Shown here in pieces: positions 3,410-56,776 of a stretch of 64,000 nucleotides of DNA. Positions within the stretch are counted from its first letter, which is position 1; each line of letters starts with the position of its first letter. The translations under genes were made by a program, and so were the position numbers. Under the pieces are notes generated by a model. That model searched no databases. It was not told the origin of the DNA and saw only the letters and a program-made list of their open reading frames with translations. The stretch is taken from the NCBI GenBank assembly GCA_902774045.1, contig CACYGW010000002.1, positions 1 to 64,000 of the forward strand, read 5' to 3'. Origin of the DNA: an uncultured Bacteroidia bacterium (GTDB lineage Bacteria; Bacteroidota; Bacteroidia; Bacteroidales; UBA932).

Positions 3410-3500
3410 TTGAGGTTTTATTTAATGTGACCAGTAGGTTTTTGGGGGCATTTACCCGGCTAGGGTCGCGCAAGCGACAGCCCCCGAAAACCTACTGGTC
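3410..3500. repeat. Palindromic repeat, copy 1 (91 bp)
   Basis: A 21-bp arm (3429-3449, GACCAGTAGG then TTTTTGGGGGC) pairs with 3480-3500 with a single G-T type mismatch. Between the arms is a small hairpin, GTCGC-GCAA-GCGAC. The full 91 bp, including a 19-bp non-palindromic left flank, match copy 3 (8265-8355) at all but one base. Outer arms and both flanks match the short copy 2. It sits between the DUF262-HNH gene and the next lipoprotein gene. No other gene is evident in 3265-3639. Confidence 0.9.
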
Positions 3501-4440: not shown

Positions 4441-4470
4441 GCCAGGAATCCAAACGACTGGCCTCTTGTT
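4439..4470 (+). terminator. Terminator of the DUF6624 lipoprotein gene
   Basis: AGGCCAG and CTGGCCT (4439-4445, 4458-4464) form a 7-bp stem that begins inside the stop codon and is followed by the T-rich tract TCTTGTTTTA. Confidence 0.6.
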
Positions 4471-4520
4471 TTATTTAATGTGACCAGTAGGTTTAGGCCT
4501 ACTGGTCATATTTTGCCATC
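4468..4520. repeat. Palindromic repeat, copy 2 (internally deleted)
   Basis: The left flank TTTTATTTAATGTGACCAG and the 10-bp arms GACCAGTAGG (4482-4491) and CCTACTGGTC (4498-4507) match copy 1, and so does most of the right flank (CATATTTT, CCATCA). The inner G/C-rich stem and small hairpin are absent and the loop is only six bases. It lies between convergent genes. Confidence 0.85.
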
Positions 4521-8264: not shown

Positions 8265-8355
8265 TTGAGGTTTTATTTAATGTGACCAGTAGGTTTTTGG
8301 GGGCATTTACCCGGCTAGGGTCGCGCAAGCGACAGCCCCCAAAAACCTACTGGTC
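8265..8355. repeat. Palindromic repeat, copy 3 (91 bp)
   Basis: The 21-bp arms at 8284-8304 and 8335-8355 are perfectly complementary, enclosing the GTCGC-GCAA-GCGAC hairpin. It differs from copy 1 at one base (8341). It lies immediately 3' of cstA and upstream of the sigma-factor operon, at the apparent boundary between the AT-rich island and the core genes. Confidence 0.9.
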
Positions 8356-45980: not shown

Positions 45981-47246
45981 ATGCCCGTGAGGGCCTTTAA
46001 AATGGAAGATTTTAAGAAAAACAACACAGAAAGGGGCCGCAGAGCTTCCTTCGGAGAAAGAAAGAGTTATGGAAGCCACAGTAGTGGAGAGCGCCGCAGC
46101 TACGGCGAGCGCAAGCCTTACGGTGAGCGCAAGACTTATGGCGAACGCCGCACAGACGGCGAAGGCCGCAGCAACTATGGCGAGCGCAGAAGCTACGGTG
46201 AGCGCAAGCCTTACGGCGAGCGCCGCACAGACGGTGAAAACAGAAACTTCGGTGAGCGCCGCAGTTACGGAGACCGCAAGCCTTACGGCGAGCGCCGCAC
46301 AGATGGTGAAAACAGAAACTTCGGCGAGCGCCGCAGTTACGGAGACCGCAAGCCTTACGGCGAGCGCCGTGGTTACGGCGACCGCAGCCAGGGCGGCGGA
46401 AGACCCTACGGCCGTAAGCCCTTTGCCAAGAAGAAAGCGCAGCTTAGCGGCATAGACCGAATGGTAAACCGCAAACCTTTGATTTCCAACATAACAGAAA
46501 AAGTAGAGGCTGTGCCCTCTGTTATTAAGGAAGAGATGCGCCTTAATAAATTTATTGCCAACTCCGGCGTTTGCTCCCGCAGGGAGGCCGACGTTATGAT
46601 TCAGGCAGGCGTAGTTTCCGTTAACGGAGAGGTTGTAACCGAGCTTGGCACAAAAGTTAACGTTTACAAGGACGAGATTAGGTTCAACGGAGAACTTCTT
46701 CGCGGAGAAGAAAAGGTCTACATAGTAATGAATAAGCCCAAGGGATTTGTTACCACTACAAGCGACGCTCACGCAGAGAAGACCGTAATGGACCTTCTTA
46801 AGAACTGCCCCAACAGGGTATTCCCCGTTGGCCGCCTGGACAAGAACACCACAGGCGTGCTTATGTTCACCAATGACGGAGAAATTGCAGAAAGGCTTAC
46901 CCACCCTTCGTACGACAAGAAGAAAATCTATCAGGTAACCCTTGACAGAAATCTGGAAGAAGAAGATTTCAAGAAGATCCTTGAAGGAGTATCACTTACG
47001 GACGGCCTGGTACAGGCAGACGAGCTGGAATACGTAGACGCAGAGAACCACAGAAAACTTGGCATAGAGATTCATTCCGGCAAGAACCGCATCGTGCGCA
47101 GGATATTCGAAAGCCTGGGCTACGACGTAAAGGGACTTGACAGAGTTTACTTCGCCGGCCTTACCAAGAAGGGCCTCAAGCGCGGAGAATGGAGGTTCCT
47201 CACAGAGAACGAGTCCAACATACTTAAAATGGGAGCATACATATAG
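45981..47246 (+). CDS. rluB: RluB-family 23S rRNA pseudouridine synthase with repetitive basic N-terminus
   Basis: The protein has 421 residues. A basic, Gly/Tyr/Arg/Glu-rich repetitive tail (~20-150, SYGERK/SYGDRKPYGERR units) precedes an S4 RNA-binding domain (~187-235, RLNKFIANSGVCSRREADVM) and the synthase domain with catalytic Asp287 in GRLDKNTTGVLMF. The family isomerises U2605-type sites in 23S rRNA. Such tails occur in Bacteroidetes homologues and may aid RNA binding. A second ATG at 46002 (MEDFKKNN) is a fair alternative start. Four bases from the TonB gene. Confidence 0.9.
   Translation: MPVRAFKMEDFKKNNTERGRRASFGERKSYGSHSSGERRSYGERKPYGERKTYGERRTDGEGRSNYGERRSYGERKPYGERRTDGENRNFGERRSYGDRKPYGERRTDGENRNFGERRSYGDRKPYGERRGYGDRSQGGGRPYGRKPFAKKKAQLSGIDRMVNRKPLISNITEKVEAVPSVIKEEMRLNKFIANSGVCSRREADVMIQAGVVSVNGEVVTELGTKVNVYKDEIRFNGELLRGEEKVYIVMNKPKGFVTTTSDAHAEKTVMDLLKNCPNRVFPVGRLDKNTTGVLMFTNDGEIAERLTHPSYDKKKIYQVTLDRNLEEEDFKKILEGVSLTDGLVQADELEYVDAENHRKLGIEIHSGKNRIVRRIFESLGYDVKGLDRVYFAGLTKKGLKRGEWRFLTENESNILKMGAYI
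46191..46373 (+). repeat. 72-bp tandem coding repeat in rluB
   Basis: A 24-codon unit (SYG[E/D]RKPYGERR then TDGENRNFGERR) is repeated from residue 71, with two full units and a third partial. Shorter SYGERK-type units precede it. Confidence 0.85.
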
Positions 47247-48152: not shown

Positions 48153-50942
48153 ATGAGCGAAGAATGGGACGACATTAAAGAGACCGGAGCGCAGGACGAT
48201 TTTGATTCCGACGAGCTGCTGGACGATTCGGCGGCGCCCACGGGGCGGTTCAACCGCCTGCTTGGGGACGACAGTGCAAAGTTCAAGCTGTCCGGAATGT
48301 TCAAGGACTGGTTCCTGGACTACTCTTCCTATGTAATTCTTGCCAGGGCCGTTCCGCACATCGTGGACGGACTTAAGCCGGTTCAGCGCCGCGTACTTCA
48401 CGCAATGTTTATGATGGATGACGGCCGTTATACCAAGGTGGCCAACATCGTGGGACAGGCAATGCAGTATCATCCTCACGGAGACTCTTCCATACTTGGA
48501 GCCTTGGTCCAGCTGGGACAAAAGGGTTTCACCGTGGATTGCCAGGGAAACTGGGGTAACATTTTGACAGGCGACAGCAATGCCGCTCCCCGTTACATAG
48601 AGGCCCGCCTTAGCGCTTTTGCAAAGGAAGTTGTCTTTGACAGGAAAATTACCAAGTGGATGACTTCCTACGACGGAAGAAACCAGGAGCCTACAGAGCT
48701 TCCCGTAAGATTCCCCCTGCTTCTGGCCCAAGGCACGGAAGGCATCGCCGTGGGTATGCAGTCAAAGATACTTCCCCACAACTTTAACGAGCTCATAGAC
48801 GCCTCCATCGCCATACTAAAAGGCGAGCCCTACGAGATTTATCCTGACTTCCCCACCGGCGGCTTTGCAGAGTGTTCCAAATATATGCAGGGCAGGCGCG
48901 GCGGAATGGTAAGGGTGCGCGCAAGAATAGAGAAGATAGATAAGAACACCATCGCCATAACCGAAATACCCTTTGGCAAGACCACTCAGGTTGTAATAGA
49001 CACCATACTCAAGGCAAAGGACAAGGGTAAGATAAAAATCAAGAAGATAGACGATATGACAACGGACAAGGTGGAAATCATAATCCATCTGCCCAATGAC
49101 GTATCGCCGGACAAGACGATAGACGCCCTCTATGCCTTTACCGATTGTGAAACGAAGATTGCTCCCAACGCCTGCGTAATCGTAGACAACAAGCCACAGT
49201 TCCTGAGCGTGAACGACGTGCTGGAATACAGTACCAATCACACCAAGGACCTGCTTGGAAGACAGCTCCAGATTAAGCTGGACGAACTGCAGAACGACTG
49301 GCATTACAACTCGCTGGAGAAGATTTTCTTCGAGAACCGCATCTACAAAGTGCTGGAGCAGGACCAGAAGACCTGGGAGATTCAGCTTAAGGAGGTATTC
49401 GATGCAATGAAGCAGTACCAGAACCTTCTTAAGAGAGAGATAGTGATGGACGACATCCTTAAGCTGGTAGAAAAGCCTGTGCGCAAGATTTCCAAGTTTG
49501 ACGTAAAGGCTGTAGAAGAGAAGATTAAGGGTATAGAGGAGCAGATTGCCGATGTTTCCGACAAACTTGCAAACCTTACCCGCTTTACCATAGACTGGTT
49601 CAAGTCCCTGAAGAAAAAATACGGAGACCTGTTCCCCCGCAGGACAGAAATCACCAACTTCGAGACAATTGCCGCAACCAAGGTTGTAAATAACAATATG
49701 AAACTCTATGCCAATATGGCAGAGGGCTTCGTAGGCTATGGATTAAAGAAGGACGATGGCGGCGAGTATATCTGCGACTGCTCTGACCTTTCAGAAATCA
49801 TCACCATCTGCAAAGACGGAACCTATCAGGTTACCAAGATATCAGACAAGACCTTCATTGCCAAGGATTTACTCTATGTGGGAGTATTCAACAGGGGTGA
49901 CGACAGAACCATCTACAATGTAATCTACCGGGACGGAAAGTCTTCTGTATATTACGCCAAGAGATTCAACATCATTTCCATTACAAGGGACAAGGGCTAC
50001 GACATTACCCAGGGCACACCGGGCTCGCAGGTACTTTGGCTCACTGCAAACCACAACGGAGAAGCAGAGAGCGTAAGGGTTATCTTCAGACCAAAGCCCA
50101 AACTTAAGAAGAGTTCCATAGAGTACGATTTCTCCACCCTGGCCATAAAGGGGCGCAGCAGCAGGGGTAACCTGGTTACCAAGAACGCCATTCAGAGAAT
50201 CTACCTTAAGAATAAGGGAGTATCTACCATAAGCGGCAAGAACATTTGGTACGATACTGATGTTCAGCGCCTTAACGAGGACGAGCGCGGTATACTTCTG
50301 GGGCAGTTCGAGGGCGAGGACAAGATTCTGGCCGTATTCCGCAACGGAACCTTCTATACCACATCGTTCGACCTTAGCAACCGCTATCAGGGAGATATAC
50401 TTACCATTGAGAAGTACGACCCCGAAAAGACCTTCACCGCCCTATACTGGGATGGAGAGGCCAAGGCCTATTACGTCAAGCGGTTCAGCTTCCCCGTAAG
50501 CGACAATAATCCGCTTAGCTTTATTTCCGAGGGCAAGGGCAGTTTCTTTGTGGCCCTTAGCTCTGACGAGCGTCCCGTAATAAACCTCACCTTTGGAGGC
50601 AAGTCTTCCAAGAGACAGCCGGAAGATATCGACGCAGAAGAGTTTATAGGCAAGAAGGGTTACTCTGCAAAGGGTAAGAAGTGTACCTCTTACGAGGTGG
50701 CCACAATTGCCTTTGGAGAGCCGCTGGAGCCCCGCTCTCTGCCGGAGGAGGATGTTCCGGGAAACGAGGCGGACCAGCCCGATGAACCTATCGACATTAC
50801 AGATATTCCGGAAGAGGTAGAGACCACCGTAGAGGAAGAAAAACCTGCCAAAAAAGGCAAGGAGTTCTCTGCCGGAGAAGTTATAGATCTTAGCCTTGAC
50901 GATATCAACTTTGGGGATGAACCCAATCTCTTTAATATGTAA
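48153..50942 (+). CDS. parC: Type II topoisomerase subunit A (ParC/GyrA-like)
   Basis: The protein has 929 residues. The breakage-reunion domain has GLKPVQRRVLHAMFMMDDGR, QYHPHGDSS and the catalytic Tyr148 in AAPRYIEARL. A C-terminal beta-propeller (~520-820) is followed by an acidic tail (~830-929). It has a somewhat long N-terminal acidic extension. The shape fits the topoisomerase IV A-like subunits of Bacteroidetes better than gyrase A, because no canonical GyrA-box was recognised. No ParE/GyrB gene is adjacent, so partner assignment is open. Confidence 0.88.
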   Translation: MSEEWDDIKETGAQDDFDSDELLDDSAAPTGRFNRLLGDDSAKFKLSGMFKDWFLDYSSYVILARAVPHIVDGLKPVQRRVLHAMFMMDDGRYTKVANIVGQAMQYHPHGDSSILGALVQLGQKGFTVDCQGNWGNILTGDSNAAPRYIEARLSAFAKEVVFDRKITKWMTSYDGRNQEPTELPVRFPLLLAQGTEGIAVGMQSKILPHNFNELIDASIAILKGEPYEIYPDFPTGGFAECSKYMQGRRGGMVRVRARIEKIDKNTIAITEIPFGKTTQVVIDTILKAKDKGKIKIKKIDDMTTDKVEIIIHLPNDVSPDKTIDALYAFTDCETKIAPNACVIVDNKPQFLSVNDVLEYSTNHTKDLLGRQLQIKLDELQNDWHYNSLEKIFFENRIYKVLEQDQKTWEIQLKEVFDAMKQYQNLLKREIVMDDILKLVEKPVRKISKFDVKAVEEKIKGIEEQIADVSDKLANLTRFTIDWFKSLKKKYGDLFPRRTEITNFETIAATKVVNNNMKLYANMAEGFVGYGLKKDDGGEYICDCSDLSEIITICKDGTYQVTKISDKTFIAKDLLYVGVFNRGDDRTIYNVIYRDGKSSVYYAKRFNIISITRDKGYDITQGTPGSQVLWLTANHNGEAESVRVIFRPKPKLKKSSIEYDFSTLAIKGRSSRGNLVTKNAIQRIYLKNKGVSTISGKNIWYDTDVQRLNEDERGILLGQFEGEDKILAVFRNGTFYTTSFDLSNRYQGDILTIEKYDPEKTFTALYWDGEAKAYYVKRFSFPVSDNNPLSFISEGKGSFFVALSSDERPVINLTFGGKSSKRQPEDIDAEEFIGKKGYSAKGKKCTSYEVATIAFGEPLEPRSLPEEDVPGNEADQPDEPIDITDIPEEVETTVEEEKPAKKGKEFSAGEVIDLSLDDINFGDEPNLFNM

Positions 50943-50945
50943 AAG

Positions 50946-51557
50946 GTGACGGAGATAAGGCCCATAATTTCCCTTACCGGAATGCCGGGATGCGGGAAAA
51001 GCCTTGTAGGAGAGGAGCTGTCCAGGCTCCTTTCCTGCTCTTGGGCAGACCTCGACAGGGCCGTAGAGGCTGCCGCCGGAAAGACAATCCCGCAAATCTT
51101 CCGGGATGGCGGCGAGCCCGCCTTCCGCGCCCTTGAGGCCACGGTGCTGGAGTCCGTAATTTCGACCGACCTCAAGTCTGTCATTTCGACCGACCTCAAG
51201 TCTGTCATTTCGACCGAGCGAAGCGAGTGGAGAAATCTCCCCAGTTCCCTAATCCTCTCCTTAGGAGGAGGAACCATCCTTAGCCCCGGAAACCAGGCCT
51301 TAATCCTGGAACACACCACCTGCATCTACCTTTGCGCCACCCCTGCCGAGCTTCTGGACAACATAAAGGCCCAGAGCAGCGTACAGCGCCCCCTGCTTGG
51401 CGCCCCCACGGAGGAATCCCTGGCCGCCCTGCTGCAGCAGCGCGCACCTGCCTACAGCAAAGCCCACCTGAGCGTAGAAACGGCCTGGCGCACCCCCTTG
51501 GAAATTGCTAAGGAAATAGTGGCTAAATTACGTCTTCCCGCTCCCGGATGTCTTTAA
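50946..51557 (+). CDS. aroK: Shikimate kinase with an in-frame repeat insertion
   Basis: The protein has 203 residues from GTG 50946, three bases after the topoisomerase stop. P-loop GMPGCGKS (12-19), the shikimate-binding DLDRAVEAAAG and FRDGGEPAFRALE, and GGGT after it mark shikimate kinase. Residues ~71-98 (VISTDLKS twice, then VISTERSEWRNL) have no counterpart in the family and come from a palindromic repeat. Without them the length is about 175, normal for AroK. The insert falls between a helix and the strand leading to GGGT, a loop position likely tolerated. The 3' end overlaps recJ by 35 bases. Confidence 0.9.
   Translation: MTEIRPIISLTGMPGCGKSLVGEELSRLLSCSWADLDRAVEAAAGKTIPQIFRDGGEPAFRALEATVLESVISTDLKSVISTDLKSVISTERSEWRNLPSSLILSLGGGTILSPGNQALILEHTTCIYLCATPAELLDNIKAQSSVQRPLLGAPTEESLAALLQQRAPAYSKAHLSVETAWRTPLEIAKEIVAKLRLPAPGCL
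51156..51238 (+). repeat. In-frame palindromic-type repeat inside aroK
   Basis: Two 24-bp units (GTNATTTCGACCGACCTCAAGTCT pattern, 51156-51179 and 51180-51203) are followed by GTCATTTCGACCGAGCGAAG and CGAGTGGAGAAATCT (51204-51238). The last part is nearly the same as the end of the repeat in the trmH gene at 55121-55328 and is translated in the same frame (VIS-ERSE-RNL). Confidence 0.9.
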
Positions 51558-53262
51558 GACGGAGCTGGATAGTGGAACTTCCGCGATAGTAATTCTCTAC
51601 GATAGAATAACAGATATCAAAAGGATTGCCAGCTTTTATATGGTCGAAATACTCCGACATATTAAAGCCTATGGCGCTAATCTGGTGATAAGGCTGCGAC
51701 TCCTGGATAAGGTCCAGCTTAAGATGCTGGGCAGCGGGACCCACCTTGCGCCCGTTACCGTCGTCGTAAACATTCTCCGTAAGGAAGACAGGAGCGCTGT
51801 TTCCGGGGCCGAAGGGCTGGAACTGCTTCAGAATCCTGAAGAACTTGGGAGTAATATGGGAGAAATCCAGGACAGAATCAACCTCAACCACGGGGGTTGA
51901 CATCTCCTTGTTCATATTGGCCGCCACGTACTCCTCTATCCGCCTTGCAAACTCCGCCAGATTCTCTTCCTTCATAGTAAGGCCGGCGGCGTAAATATGC
52001 CCTCCGAAGTTCTCTAAAAGGTCTGCCTGCTTGTCTATGCTGTCGTACAGGTCAAAGCCCCTTACGCTTCTGGCAGAGCCGGTTATAAAGCCGTTAGACT
52101 TGGTGAGCACGAACGTAGGCTTGTAGAAGGCCTCTACAAGACGGGAGGCCACGATTCCCACCACGCCCTTGTTCCAGGAAGGATTGTAAACTATGGTGGC
52201 GTATTCAGATGCAATACAGTTCCCGCTCATTACCATATCTATGGCCTCGCGGGTTATCTCCCGGTCTATGCTCTTGCGCTCGTTGTTATTGTCGTTTATC
52301 TTGGAGGCAATCAGGGCGGCATCGGCATCCTCCGTGGCGGTAAGAAGCTCTACGGCCAGGCGGCCGGTCTCCATTCTGCCTGCGGCATTTATCCTGGGGC
52401 CTATTTTGAATACGATATCGTCGATGGTTACGTGGCTTGTCTCCAGGTTAGACAGGTTGATGATAGCCTGGAGGCCCTTGCGCGGCTGCTCGTTAAGCCT
52501 CCTTAGACCAAAATGGGCCAGCACCCTGTTTTCTCCCCTTACGGACACAAGGTCAGAAGCGATACTTACGGCCAGCAGGTCCAGAAGAGGAATAAGCTGC
52601 TCGAAGTCAACACCTTCTGTCTGGGCGTAGGCCTGAACCAGCTTGAAGCCCACTCCGCAACCGCAGAGGTCGTCGAACGGATACTGGCAGTCTTCCCTCT
52701 TGGGGTCCAGAACTGCAACGGCGGCGGGGAGTTCGTCTTCCGGAAGGTGATGGTCGCAGACAATTACGTCTATGCCCTTGGAGGCGGCGTAGGCCACCTT
52801 TTCTATTGCCTTGATTCCGCAGTCCAGGGTGATTATGAGTTTGAATCCGTTGTCGGCGGCCCACTCAATGCCCTTGCGGGATACTCCGTAACCCTCGTCG
52901 TACCTGTCCGGAATATAAAAATCTATCCGGGCGGTAAGGCGCCTAAGGAAAGAAAAGACCAGGGCAACGGCCGTGGTACCATCGACATCATAATCCCCGT
53001 AAACCAAAATCTTTTCTCCGGAGTTTACCGCCTTGCGAAGCCTGGCCACCGCCTTGTCCATATCCTTCATAAGGAAGGGGTCGTGCAGGGAGGACAGGTC
53101 CGGGCGGAAGAAGGCGCGGGCCTCCTCGAAGGTAGTGACACCCCGCTGGACAAGCAGCGAAGAAAGAACCGGGTCTATGCCAAGCTCTGCCGAGAGGCGG
53201 CTTACCGTCTCTTCCTGACCGGAATTCTGCTTAACAATCCACTTTCTTTCTACAGGTGTCAT
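51523..53262 (-). CDS. recJ: Single-stranded-DNA exonuclease RecJ
   Basis: The protein has 579 residues. DHH nuclease motifs: YGDYDVDGTTAVAL (88-101), ITLDCGIKAIE, VCDHH (168-172) and GPRINAAGRMETG. A C-terminal OB domain follows. It is a 5'-3' exonuclease used in recombination and mismatch repair. Convergent overlap with aroK. Its promoter interleaves with that of lysS. Confidence 0.95.
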   Translation of the reverse strand: MTPVERKWIVKQNSGQEETVSRLSAELGIDPVLSSLLVQRGVTTFEEARAFFRPDLSSLHDPFLMKDMDKAVARLRKAVNSGEKILVYGDYDVDGTTAVALVFSFLRRLTARIDFYIPDRYDEGYGVSRKGIEWAADNGFKLIITLDCGIKAIEKVAYAASKGIDVIVCDHHLPEDELPAAVAVLDPKREDCQYPFDDLCGCGVGFKLVQAYAQTEGVDFEQLIPLLDLLAVSIASDLVSVRGENRVLAHFGLRRLNEQPRKGLQAIINLSNLETSHVTIDDIVFKIGPRINAAGRMETGRLAVELLTATEDADAALIASKINDNNNERKSIDREITREAIDMVMSGNCIASEYATIVYNPSWNKGVVGIVASRLVEAFYKPTFVLTKSNGFITGSARSVRGFDLYDSIDKQADLLENFGGHIYAAGLTMKEENLAEFARRIEEYVAANMNKEMSTPVVEVDSVLDFSHITPKFFRILKQFQPFGPGNSAPVFLTENVYDDGNGRKVGPAAQHLKLDLIQESQPYHQISAIGFNMSEYFDHIKAGNPFDICYSIVENYYRGSSTIQLRLKDIREREDVI

Positions 53263-53282
53263 ATTCGAAGGAAAAGATTTTC

Positions 53283-53313
53283 CAAATATAGCCGATTTTT
53301 TCTATATTTGCAA
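53283..53313. promoter_or_regulatory. Interleaved divergent promoters of recJ and lysS
   Basis: Leftward: -33 TTG (53313-53311), 20 bp, -7 TATATTTG (53290-53283). Rightward: -7 TATATTTG (53303-53310), with a weak TTT at -33. The two -7 boxes form a perfect 8-bp inverted repeat separated by 12 bp, and each lies in the spacer of the other promoter. Confidence 0.6.
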
Positions 53314-53334
53314 TTCTAATAAAATGGAACTAAA

Positions 53335-54882
53335 ATGGCAACTCAACAGCTCAGTGAACAGGAGATTCTTAGAAGAGAATCAATGACAAAGCTTAGGGAA
53401 CTTGGCATAGAGCCGTACCCCGCACCTCTTTATCCGGTCAATGCTACCGCTCAGCAGATAGAAAAAGAGTACAAACCGGAGGAAGGGAATCTCCAGGATG
53501 TCTGCATCGCAGGAAGGATTATGTCGCGCAGGATCATGGGCGCCGCTTCCTTTATGGAATTGCAGGACGAGACCGGAAGGATTCAGATTTACGTCAAGAG
53601 AGACGAGATCTGCCCCGGAGAAGACAAGACAATGTACAACACCGTCTTCAAGAAACTTCTGGACATTGGCGATATCGTGGGTATCAAGGGCTTTGCCTTC
53701 ATTACCCAGACCGGCCAGCTTTCCATCCACGCCAAGGAACTTACGGTGCTTAGCAAATCCCTTAAGGTGCTGCCCATCGTAAAGGAGGCCGACGGCAAGG
53801 TTCATGATGCCTTTACAGACCCCGAGCTCCGCTACCGACAGAGGTACGTGGATCTTATTGTGAATCCACAGGTTAAGGATGTGTTTGTAAAGAGGGCCAA
53901 GATAGTGCAGACTATGCGCGAGTATTTTAACGAGGCCGGCTGCCTTGAGGTGGAAACCCCTATCCTTCAGGCAATTCCCGGCGGCGCAACAGCCCGTCCC
54001 TTCATTACCCATCACAACGCCCTGGATATTCCTCTGTACATGAGAATTGCCAACGAGCTTTACCTGAAGAGACTCATCGTAGGCGGCTTCCCGGGAGTGT
54101 ACGAGTTTGCCAAGGACTTCCGCAACGAGGGTATGGACAAGACTCACAATCCGGAGTTCACCTGTATGGAAATCTACGTTGCCTACAAGGATTATATCTG
54201 GATGATGGAGTTTGTAGAGAAGATGCTGGAGAAGGTATCTACTGCCGTTAACGGTACCACCAAGGTTGTGATTGCCGGAAACGAGGTTGATTTCAAGGCT
54301 CCCTACCGCAGGATTGGCATCCTGGACGCCATTAAGGAGTATGCCGGTGTTGATGTTGCCGGAATGGGCGTAGACGAGCTCAGGGCCGTATGCAAGAAGC
54401 TTAACGTAGAGGTTACTCCTTCCATGGGCGTTGGCAAGCTGATTGACGCCATCTTTGGAGAGTACTGCGAGAAGAACTTCGTTCAGCCTACCTTCGTGAT
54501 TGATTATCCCGTAGAGATGTCTCCCCTTACAAAGAGGCACCGCACCAATCCTTCGCTAACGGAGAGGTTCGAACTCTTCGTCTGCGGCAAGGAGCTGGCA
54601 AATGCCTACTCTGAGCTTAACGACCCCGTGGACCAGCTGGAGAGATTCGAGGACCAGGCCCGCCTTAAGGCTGGCGGCGACGACGAGGCTATGTTCATAG
54701 ACTACGACTTTGTACGCGCCCTGGAATACGGTATGCCTCCTACCTCGGGACTTGGAATGGGTATCGACCGTCTTACTATGTTTATGACCGGGCAGACTAC
54801 CATTCAAGATGTTCTTTTCTTCCCTCAGATGAGGCCGGAAAAGCAGCCTGATAAGCAGTCCGAGAAGCAGCAGGAAAAATAG
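53335..54882 (+). CDS. lysS: Lysyl-tRNA synthetase, class II
   Basis: The protein has 515 residues: N-terminal OB anticodon-binding domain (~55-150, [20 protein letters not shown]), class II motif 1 region [14 protein letters not shown], motif 2 [19 protein letters not shown] and motif 3 [16 protein letters not shown] short Lys/Gln-rich tail ([14 protein letters not shown]) is added at the end. The ATG at 53335 gives the expected start. Confidence 0.97.
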
Positions 54883-54899
54883 ACCTGTCCTGTTCTACG

Positions 54900-55898
54900 A
54901 TGGAGGTTATTAGTTCTGCGCAGAATCCTAAGATTAAGGAGCTCCTGGCGTTGCAGCAAAAGTCTAAGTTGCGCCGCAGCGAGGGGCTCTTTGTAGTCGA
55001 GGGCCGGCGGGAACTTGAGCATTGTCTAGAGGCCGGCTACAGCGTAAGGACTTTGTTCGTGTGCCCGGAGATTTTTTCCCCCGCAGAGGACACTCCCATT
55101 CTAAATTCTTTCCTGGATAGAGATTTCTCCATTCGGGCCTGTCGGCCCTCAGTCGAAATGACAAAAGGGGCTTCTCTCGAAATTACAAAAGGGGCTTCTC
55201 TCGAAATGATAAAAGGAGCTTCTCTTGAAATGATAAAAGGGGCTTCTCTCGAAATGACAAAAGGAGCTTCCATCGAAATGACAAATAATGATGTCATTTC
55301 GAGCGAGCGAAGCGAGTCGAGAAATCTTTTTCAGGTTACCCCGGAGGTGTACTCAAAGGTGGCCTACCGTGAAGGCACGGAAGGCATAATGGCAGAAGTA
55401 TACTCCAAGCCTCAGGACCTTGGCAACCTTAACCTCCCGGACAACCCCATAATAATAGTGCTGGAATCCGTAGAAAAGCCCGGCAACCTTGGCGCAGTGC
55501 TTCGCAGCGCCGACGCAGCCGCGGCCAGCGCAGTAATTATCTGCGACCCTCTTACGGACCTTTATAATCCCAACCTTATAAGGGCATCGGTTGGCGCGGT
55601 CTTCACCGTGCCCGTTGCCGTAGCATCGACAAAGGAAACTATCAGCTTCCTAAAGAATAAGGGCATAAAGATTCTTACCGCCCAGCTGCAGGATTCGTCG
55701 CTCTACTACTCAGAACAGATGAGCGGCCCCACGGCCATAGTTATGGGCACCGAATCTACCGGCCTTTCACAGGAGTGGCGCGCAGCCGCCGACGCCCACA
55801 TCCGCATCCCTATGCTTGGGCGGCTGGATTCCCTTAACGTATCGGTCTCTGCAGCCATACTGCTTTTCGAGGCCCTGCGCCAAAGAACAGAGAAATGA
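54900..55898 (+). CDS. TrmH/SpoU-family RNA methyltransferase with long in-frame repeat insertion
   Basis: The protein has 332 residues. N-terminal RNA-binding domain (SSAQNPKIKELLALQQKSKL, LFVVEGRRELEHCLEAG), then the SPOUT domain with LESVEKPGNLGAVLRSADAA, VMGTESTGLSQEW and SLNVSVSAAILLFEALRQ. Residues ~75-143 are a repeat-derived insert (SLEMTKGA-type units, then DVISSERSESRNLF). Removing about 69 residues returns the protein to a normal length near 263. The insert sits between the N-terminal domain and the remainder, probably as a surface loop. It overlaps aroE (ATGA). Confidence 0.9.
   Translation: MEVISSAQNPKIKELLALQQKSKLRRSEGLFVVEGRRELEHCLEAGYSVRTLFVCPEIFSPAEDTPILNSFLDRDFSIRACRPSVEMTKGASLEITKGASLEMIKGASLEMIKGASLEMTKGASIEMTNNDVISSERSESRNLFQVTPEVYSKVAYREGTEGIMAEVYSKPQDLGNLNLPDNPIIIVLESVEKPGNLGAVLRSADAAAASAVIICDPLTDLYNPNLIRASVGAVFTVPVAVASTKETISFLKNKGIKILTAQLQDSSLYYSEQMSGPTAIVMGTESTGLSQEWRAAADAHIRIPMLGRLDSLNVSVSAAILLFEALRQRTEK
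55121..55328 (+). repeat. Composite in-frame palindromic repeat inside the trmH-family gene
   Basis: It starts with AGATTTCTCCATTC (an inverted copy of the repeat end), passes through tandem 24-bp units, and ends with a forward copy, GATGTCATTTCGAGCGAGCG followed by AAGCGAGTCGAGAAATCT. Forward and inverted ends enclose the tandem array, so the whole is a large imperfect palindrome that remains open in the gene's frame. Confidence 0.9.
55153..55272 (+). repeat. 24-bp tandem array (five units) within the insertion
   Basis: Five units of the TCGAAATGACAAAAGG-GGCTTCTC type (55153-55176, 55177-55200, 55201-55224, 55225-55248, 55249-55272) with one to three changes each. A partial sixth follows. 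Each unit adds eight residues and so preserves the reading frame whatever the copy number. Confidence 0.92.
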
Positions 55899-56776
55899 AA
55901 AGGTTCGGTCTTATAGGCTCCGGCATCTCCCACTCCCAGAGCCCGGCCCTCTTTAAGGAGGCTTATGGCGACAAATGGCCCTACGACCTTCTGGACGGGG
56001 AGGAGTTTGACCCTTTGTGGGAAAAGTTTCTTACAGATTACTCCGGCGTAAACATTACCTCTCCCTTCAAGGAAAAGGCTTTTATGCAGGTTGCGGCGCT
56101 TACGGCCGATGGCCGCGGAATGCTTACAGGCCCGGCGCTCAAGGCCGGCGCCATAAACATTGCCGTAAAGCAGGAGGGGTGTATTCTCGGAGCGAACACA
56201 GATTTTGACGCGGTGGTTCTCTCTGTGGCCGAGGCTCTGTTTCCCGGCATTATAGAGGAGTTCTCCGGAACCTTTGGGAGGGACCTTACAAAGCGGGCCC
56301 ATCAGTTTGTAAAGCAGCAGTTTGACAGTGTCTATCCCGGCCAGGGGGCGCAGGCCCTTGTGATTGGCTGCGGAGGGGCCGGCCGCGCGGCGGCAGTTGC
56401 GGCGGCAGAGCTGGGGTACGATGTTATCCTTACAAACAGGACCCAGTCGCGGGCTGCGGACTTTGCCCTTAGCCTTCCGGAGTACGGCTTTGCCGTTTGC
56501 GGCATCCAGGATCTTAAGCCTGCCGTCAAGGCCTGCGACCTAATTATTCTTGCAGCATCGGCCCAAATAGAAAATCTGGAAATATCGGACTTTGAAAAAA
56601 TAGGCCCGCACAGGCCAAAAATTCTAATCGAGGCCAACTATAAAAATCCTATCTTCGCCGGAGAGAGACTTCTCACGGCCCTGAGGGCCGGGGTTATCCA
56701 CGTGGACGGGAGCCAATGGCTGGCCCGTCAGGCCCTTGCCGGCTTCCCCGTTCTAACTTCCCCGGAGTTGCCTTAA
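55895..56776 (+). CDS. aroE: Shikimate dehydrogenase
   Basis: The protein has 293 residues. Shikimate-binding SGISHSQSPALF (9-20) and the catalytic Lys59 in NITSPFKEKAF are present, with GANTDF (99-104). The NADPH-binding loop is GCGGAGRAA (158-166). Between the two domains (~111-150) there is extra sequence, and the usual 'YNP..T.L' stretch is altered to EANYKNPIFAG, so it is a divergent member. It overlaps the preceding trmH gene and works in the same pathway as aroK 5 kb upstream. Confidence 0.9.
   Translation: MKRFGLIGSGISHSQSPALFKEAYGDKWPYDLLDGEEFDPLWEKFLTDYSGVNITSPFKEKAFMQVAALTADGRGMLTGPALKAGAINIAVKQEGCILGANTDFDAVVLSVAEALFPGIIEEFSGTFGRDLTKRAHQFVKQQFDSVYPGQGAQALVIGCGGAGRAAAVAAAELGYDVILTNRTQSRAADFALSLPEYGFAVCGIQDLKPAVKACDLIILAASAQIENLEISDFEKIGPHRPKILIEANYKNPIFAGERLLTALRAGVIHVDGSQWLARQALAGFPVLTSPELP

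Follow-up and report, generated by a model that had tools for sequence, protein, structure and literature searches.

A head-to-head pair of REP-like palindromes with a half-element array lies in the open frame of an RlmR-like methyltransferase gene from an uncultured Bacteroidales bacterium

Palindromic elements that lie in frame within protein genes have been described in Rickettsia and Wolbachia (Rickettsia palindromic elements, RPEs; Ogata 2000, 2002; Abergel 2006; reviewed in PMC2229807), and a guanylate kinase bearing such an element is both translated and active (PMC2229807). Across many species, intragenic GTAG/CGTC REPs form dimers or clusters that encode 20-82 aa within conserved genes (Di Nocera 2013, PMC3733652); linker tolerance was proposed for these copies, and one same-site case was reported, recB of two Xanthomonas (PMC3733652). 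The BrickBuilt MITE of Porphyromonas gingivalis consists of spacerless tandem 23-nt units whose flanks carry small inverted-repeat ends, and it is always intergenic (PMC4596501).

Here we describe a composite palindromic repeat inside a SpoU methyltransferase gene of the window, the whole 64,000-nucleotide stretch of DNA that was analysed. As with the RPEs, dispersed palindromes are tolerated in frame within conserved protein genes (PMC2229807), a likeness of working rather than of membership that is drawn from the RPE description. RPEs measure 105-146 bp, whereas the elements described here measure 34-42 bp, occur in pairs and arrays, belong to several unrelated families and hit the same loops in numerous species within one genus of gut Bacteroidales. 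Unlike the GTAG/CGTC superfamilies, the element ends carry neither tag; unlike the intragenic copies of those superfamilies, same-site recurrence here involves several families at three enzymes, and the frame filtering of array steps was tested statistically. The SpoU composite shares with BrickBuilt a Bacteroidales host and tandem short units between inverted-repeat ends, a likeness of architecture; however, BrickBuilt is strictly intergenic, and arrays here are also found in the genes for SpoU, AroK, a dehydrogenase, NadD, TsaB and others.

The composite occupies positions 55121-55328 of the window (Table 1), and the frame of the SpoU gene is open across all 332 codons, insert included. In gene order it consists of a reverse element, five 24-bp reverse units, a 10-bp spacer and a forward element. 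Two REP-like palindromes (GTCATTTCGA-hairpin-GAGAAATCT) stand head to head around the five half-element units, and the frame is open throughout. The half elements start at 55177, 55201, 55225, 55249 and 55273, some of them slightly altered, and the reading frame is kept because the array step is fixed at 24 bp. The initial annotation had placed the composite, its five units and its open frame correctly. It had read the reverse part as an inverted repeat end; a reverse part is present, but it is in itself a complete hairpin element of a different subtype (CT..ATGG), with a stem different from that of the forward copy.

Table 1. Coordinates of the composite repeat, its sister insert and the other coding sites of the element in this genome; positions without a contig prefix refer to the window.
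Feature	Location	Strand	Remarks
SpoU-family rRNA 2'-O-methyltransferase gene, RlmR / MRM3-like, 332 aa	54900..55898	+	Insert in interdomain linker
Complete REP-like element, CC/CT subtype, stem GGGCC-GACA-GGCCC	55121..55162	-	Sequence GTCATTTCGACTGAGGGCCGACAGGCCCGAATGGAGAAATCT
Array of five 24-bp units; a unit combines a half element (GTCATTTCGA or variant) with about 14 bp of spacer	55163..55282	-	
Short spacer from array to forward copy	55283..55292	none	
Complete REP-like element of the GC..GTCG subtype; translation VISSERSESRN	55293..55327	+	
aroK, shikimate kinase, 203 aa	50946..51557	+	PF01202; sister insert in loop ahead of conserved LGGG
Two 24-bp half-element units, aroK insert	51156..51203	+	
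Complete REP-like element, CC..GTGG subtype, in aroK	51204..51238	+	
UDP-glucose/GDP-mannose dehydrogenase coding site	C33:10451-10590		Element in this genome
Hypothetical ORF coding site, without Pfam match	C15:20201-20348		Element in this genome
UvrC C-terminus coding site	C9:55648		Array without full element, this genome

Pfam places the substrate-binding domain PF22435 at residues 9-62 of the SpoU protein and the catalytic domain PF00588 at residues 184-323. The insert, at about residues 74-143, is thus linker, as the first domain ends before it and the second starts after it. The enzyme retains its invariant residues. In the AlphaFold model, pLDDT falls below 50 at residues 77-138 and the remainder is mostly a confident fold, whose best solved match in Foldseek was RlmR of T. 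thermophilus (9h1k, TMt 0.89, 261 residues vs 332), a 23S rRNA methyltransferase. The model shows an insert that is predicted to be disordered in an enzyme whose predicted fold is intact. Pfam support for both enzymes, together with the retained residues and fold of SpoU, bears out the suggestion that conserved hosts tolerate a mobile-like repeat as coding sequence.

The sister insert in aroK (51156-51238) combines two 24-bp units with one complete element, every part forward, and aroK homologues align at residues 7-73 and 99-195, flanking it. The forward SpoU copy had been said to match this insert and to be read in the same frame, and the two do agree at 94%, both reading VIS(S/T)ER. The element is the same in both genes, as claimed, but the subtypes differ (CC..GTGG in aroK, GC..GTCG forward and CT..ATGG reverse in SpoU). 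That two copies lie within 4 kb, which had been taken as telling, means little when the genome has 42. Rfam returned no family match across 50900-56000.

We searched the whole 1.71-Mb genome with the pattern TCATTTCGA-N(8-38)-GAGAAATCT and, as a control, with the reversed pattern. Full copies numbered 42 against 0 in the control, so the SpoU/aroK repeat is not a chance match. About 36 copies lie outside recognisable genes and 6 inside open genes (SpoU 2, aroK 1, dehydrogenase 2, hypothetical ORF 1). Such genomes are usually 85-90% coding, the figure assumed here, and this share predicts the reverse of 36 out of 42 copies outside genes; most insertions into coding DNA have therefore probably since been lost.

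The 27 distinct versions of the element align with invariant ends, starting TCATTTCGA and finishing GAGAAATCT, around a variable middle. Across these 27 copies, 99.6% of cells in a ten-pair stem are paired, four of the ten pairs have changed on both sides, and double changes number 23 against a shuffled mean of 6.7; the covariation score is 0.217, compared with 0.075 after shuffling and at most 0.037 when slid one to three columns. The foot pair is C-G or G-C in 41 of the 42 copies, beside a nearly constant bulged T, and the pair adjacent to it shows a C-G to T-A exchange in three copies. Thermodynamic folding was rejected as proof of the hairpin in the short 35-nt element, for which nearest-neighbour folding was no better than shuffles (z 1.4 and 0.2); with these energies unremarkable, the hairpin of the short element rests on covariation. 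Elements of opposite orientation lie close together in nine clusters, SpoU among them. All 34 tandem junctions fall at the GTCAT end and 0 at the ATCT end, only the GTCAT half being repeated. The element is a dispersed, mostly intergenic hairpin repeat with covarying stems, and it has the defining properties of REP/BIME sequences, namely a structurally conserved imperfect palindrome of 20-45 bp, dispersed mainly extragenic copies and inverted pairs. Two subtypes per genome and Y1 transposase genes in the genome extend the likeness to REP/BIME-REPIN systems, which are likewise short imperfect palindromes, mostly extragenic and in inverted pairs (PMC6006769, PMC3116915).

We conclude that a REP/BIME-type pair with a BrickBuilt-like half-element array probably entered the linker of this RlmR-like enzyme, where it is predicted to be translated as a disordered linker. 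Insertions of palindromic repeats would occur widely, and those in solvent-exposed loops and of a length divisible by 3 would survive, since they do little harm. Surviving inserts would be translated as disordered linkers, with the repeat selfish or neutral and the insert peptide itself presumably without selected function. Copying may proceed in trans, possibly through the action of a Y1 transposase (RAYT/TnpA-REP) on hairpins of single-stranded DNA. Since every tandem junction lies at the GTCAT end, arrays may grow through successive duplications there.

We compared the SpoU linker across 30 loci of the window's genus and a further 55 taken from public genomes, assigning palindrome families by eye from the DNA. 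The window's own element recurs in L118 and L127. Open REP-like elements of other kinds were found in L125 and L127 (GTCATTCCGA..GGAATCT), L126 (GTCATCCTGA type) and L143 (GTCATTCCCGG..CCGGGAATCT). A longer palindrome, F5 (GGGCCCCTCCC..GGGTGG kind and near variants), is open at eleven loci, and another long palindrome, also open, lies in L117, L130 and, reversed, L132. The linkers of L178-L180, though long, held no clear palindrome. F5-kind palindromes also occupy the aroK loop in L145, L160, L162, L167, L169 and L170, a result taken from loop comparison, as the coverage filter of the insertion count drops ORFs with large inserts and so undercounts aroK. The loop of the UDP-sugar dehydrogenase carries REP-like inserts in L290, L292, L294, L296, L298, L300 and L301; in L289 it holds a different palindrome, and in other loci it is short. 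Same-site recurrence was thus seen at three of three sites tested (SpoU linker, aroK loop, dehydrogenase loop), and this comparison shows that, in related species, the same loops of three enzymes have captured palindromes of different families, whose frames are open in the aroK and dehydrogenase loops too.

F5 is dispersed in the genus, where 24 of 37 genomes carry it in up to 22 copies (0 of 24 genomes of other genera), yet it is absent from the window's own genome, so its captures are separate events. In a tree of 81 SpoU sequences with linker columns removed, there were 15 linker-state changes, and element F1 needs three separate ones. Ten F5 carriers fall in one group of eleven, at moderate tree support, which suggests that an insert may also be inherited through speciation. 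Insertions of at least 12 aa were counted in 29/82 SpoU orthologues but are rare among orthologues of neighbouring genes (0/41 for LysS, 0/25 for RecJ, 3/34 for AroE and 4/33 for SSB). As single strands, 15 of 26 long SpoU linkers folded more strongly than every sampled stretch of equal length from the catalytic domain of their own gene, compared with 1 of 41 short linkers; the linker of the window is outside these fifteen. The recurrent capture of several unrelated repeat families by the same loops appears to be new, while the underlying features were already known singly; a literature search, limited for subscription journals, found no report of recurrent same-loop capture in this bacterial group.

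Recurrence of this kind could also arise from insertion hot spots, where a resident palindrome or the local DNA attracts transposition machinery and new families settle on top of or next to those already present. L125, L127 and L141 indeed each have two adjacent families in the SpoU linker, and recurrence at all three sites is in line with such targeting. However, survivorship in permissive loops accounts for the same pattern, and we consider the hot-spot reading unlikely. A broader version is similarly speculative: loops would act as docking sites whose resident palindromes or local structure attract unrelated families, continually renewing linker sequence across the genus.

Besides the coding sites in Table 1, a search of nine related genomes gave further coding sites of the element or its arrays (CitC, M3 peptidase, HU-CCDC81 protein, NadD, TsaB, Fe-S protein, glycosyltransferase), and the host enzymes are confirmed by Pfam. 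Every array step was divisible by 3 in 12 of 12 coding arrays (steps of 21, 24, 27, 30 or 36 bp) compared with 9 of 25 intergenic arrays (Fisher 2e-4), a contrast that is partly built in, as genic arrays were identified via their open frame. Intergenic arrays of this genome that are flanked by sizeable genes lie between different, complete-looking genes and not within one broken gene. These data support the filtering of coding arrays for frame. Five of the six frames of the element are free of stops and the sixth reads TGA; coding copies use all five (VIS, SFR and HFE forward; EMT and RND reverse) and never the TGA frame. The initial annotation had proposed selection for a harmless reading frame, which would appear in a genome-wide count of genic and intergenic copies as an excess in one open frame. 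Its filtering component is upheld by the 12 coding arrays; a single preferred frame had to be rejected, coding copies being read in five frames with none favoured.

Two of these coding sites show further peculiarities. At the end of uvrC (L068, G000:C9:55648-55740), the frame continues through an array of 27-bp half-element units into the next gene, so the usual stop of UvrC appears to be missing. In the HU-CCDC81 protein of L266 (G005:C49), the linker combines peptides derived from the element with a long stretch of Pro-Glu repeat.

An adaptive peptide would offer another reason for retention, with the repeat-encoded linker favoured, for example because it tunes the methylation of rRNA or the activity of the kinase, and the frame chosen for the peptide. 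The same loops are used repeatedly, and a well-populated clade has F5 inserts in common, so inserts can persist through speciation; but different families encode unrelated peptides, one element is read in five frames and both orientations, and the insert is predicted to be disordered and is missing in relatives, which makes an adaptive role improbable. Pseudogenes or assembly artefacts are scarcely credible as an explanation, for although several element copies lie near contig ends (C3, C16, C23, C24, C33), as is typical for repeats in short-read assemblies, the frames are open, SpoU retains its invariant residues and its predicted fold, and independent genomes have open inserts at the same sites, with the same element in L118. 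The exact number of 24-bp units in the assembly could be wrong.

With regard to the machinery, a Y1/RAYT gene with a YIYNNP motif lies about 9-10 kb downstream of the SpoU gene (L054, G000:C2:64868-65833), with direct copies of another palindrome on both sides (about AGTCCTGCCCCCTTACCCTGGGGGTAGGACTTTT); both Y1 genes of this genome, the second at C19:39430-40350, have flanks other than the element. For all 31 Y1/RAYT genes that were examined, the adjacent 1.5 kb lacked the element. Thus, unlike in a RAYT REPtron, where the element flanks its Y1 transposase gene, no examined Y1 gene adjoins the element, and the neighbouring RAYT is not supported as a demonstrated mobiliser, given its different flanking repeat and the 31 Y1 genes without the element. 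The wider GTCAT..ATCT superfamily gave 2 matches in 90 kb beside Y1 genes vs 7 in 574 kb of background, an uninformative contrast. Element copy number correlates weakly with Y1 genes (rho 0.30, p 0.07), and Y1 genes are present in 10 of 10 genus members with at least three copies and in 17 of the 27 members that have fewer copies (p 0.036).

Other repeats were seen in the window and genome. Near-identical 91-nt palindromic copies (GACCAGTAGGTTTTTGGGGGC...GCCCCCAAAAACCTACTGGTC) lie 4.9 kb apart at 3410-3500 and 8265-8355, with a partial copy at 4468-4494, and are perhaps the ends of a mobile element. An 18-bp periodicity at 46068-46408 apparently encodes an arginine-rich repeat tail. A second tandem array of unrelated sequence, with a DNIEDDSY-like translation (L050, G000:C25:13100-13350), lies between two elements, in the region that separates a formiminotransferase-like gene from a urocanase-like one.

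In-frame protein repeats, best known from Rickettsia, have been regarded as a curiosity of bacteria that live inside cells. In the uncultured group of gut and rumen Bacteroidales described here, they are frequent, come from several families and return to the same enzyme loops in different species. The group therefore provides a natural experiment on loop gain in proteins, with many species in which tolerance, frame selection and insertion targeting may be tested.
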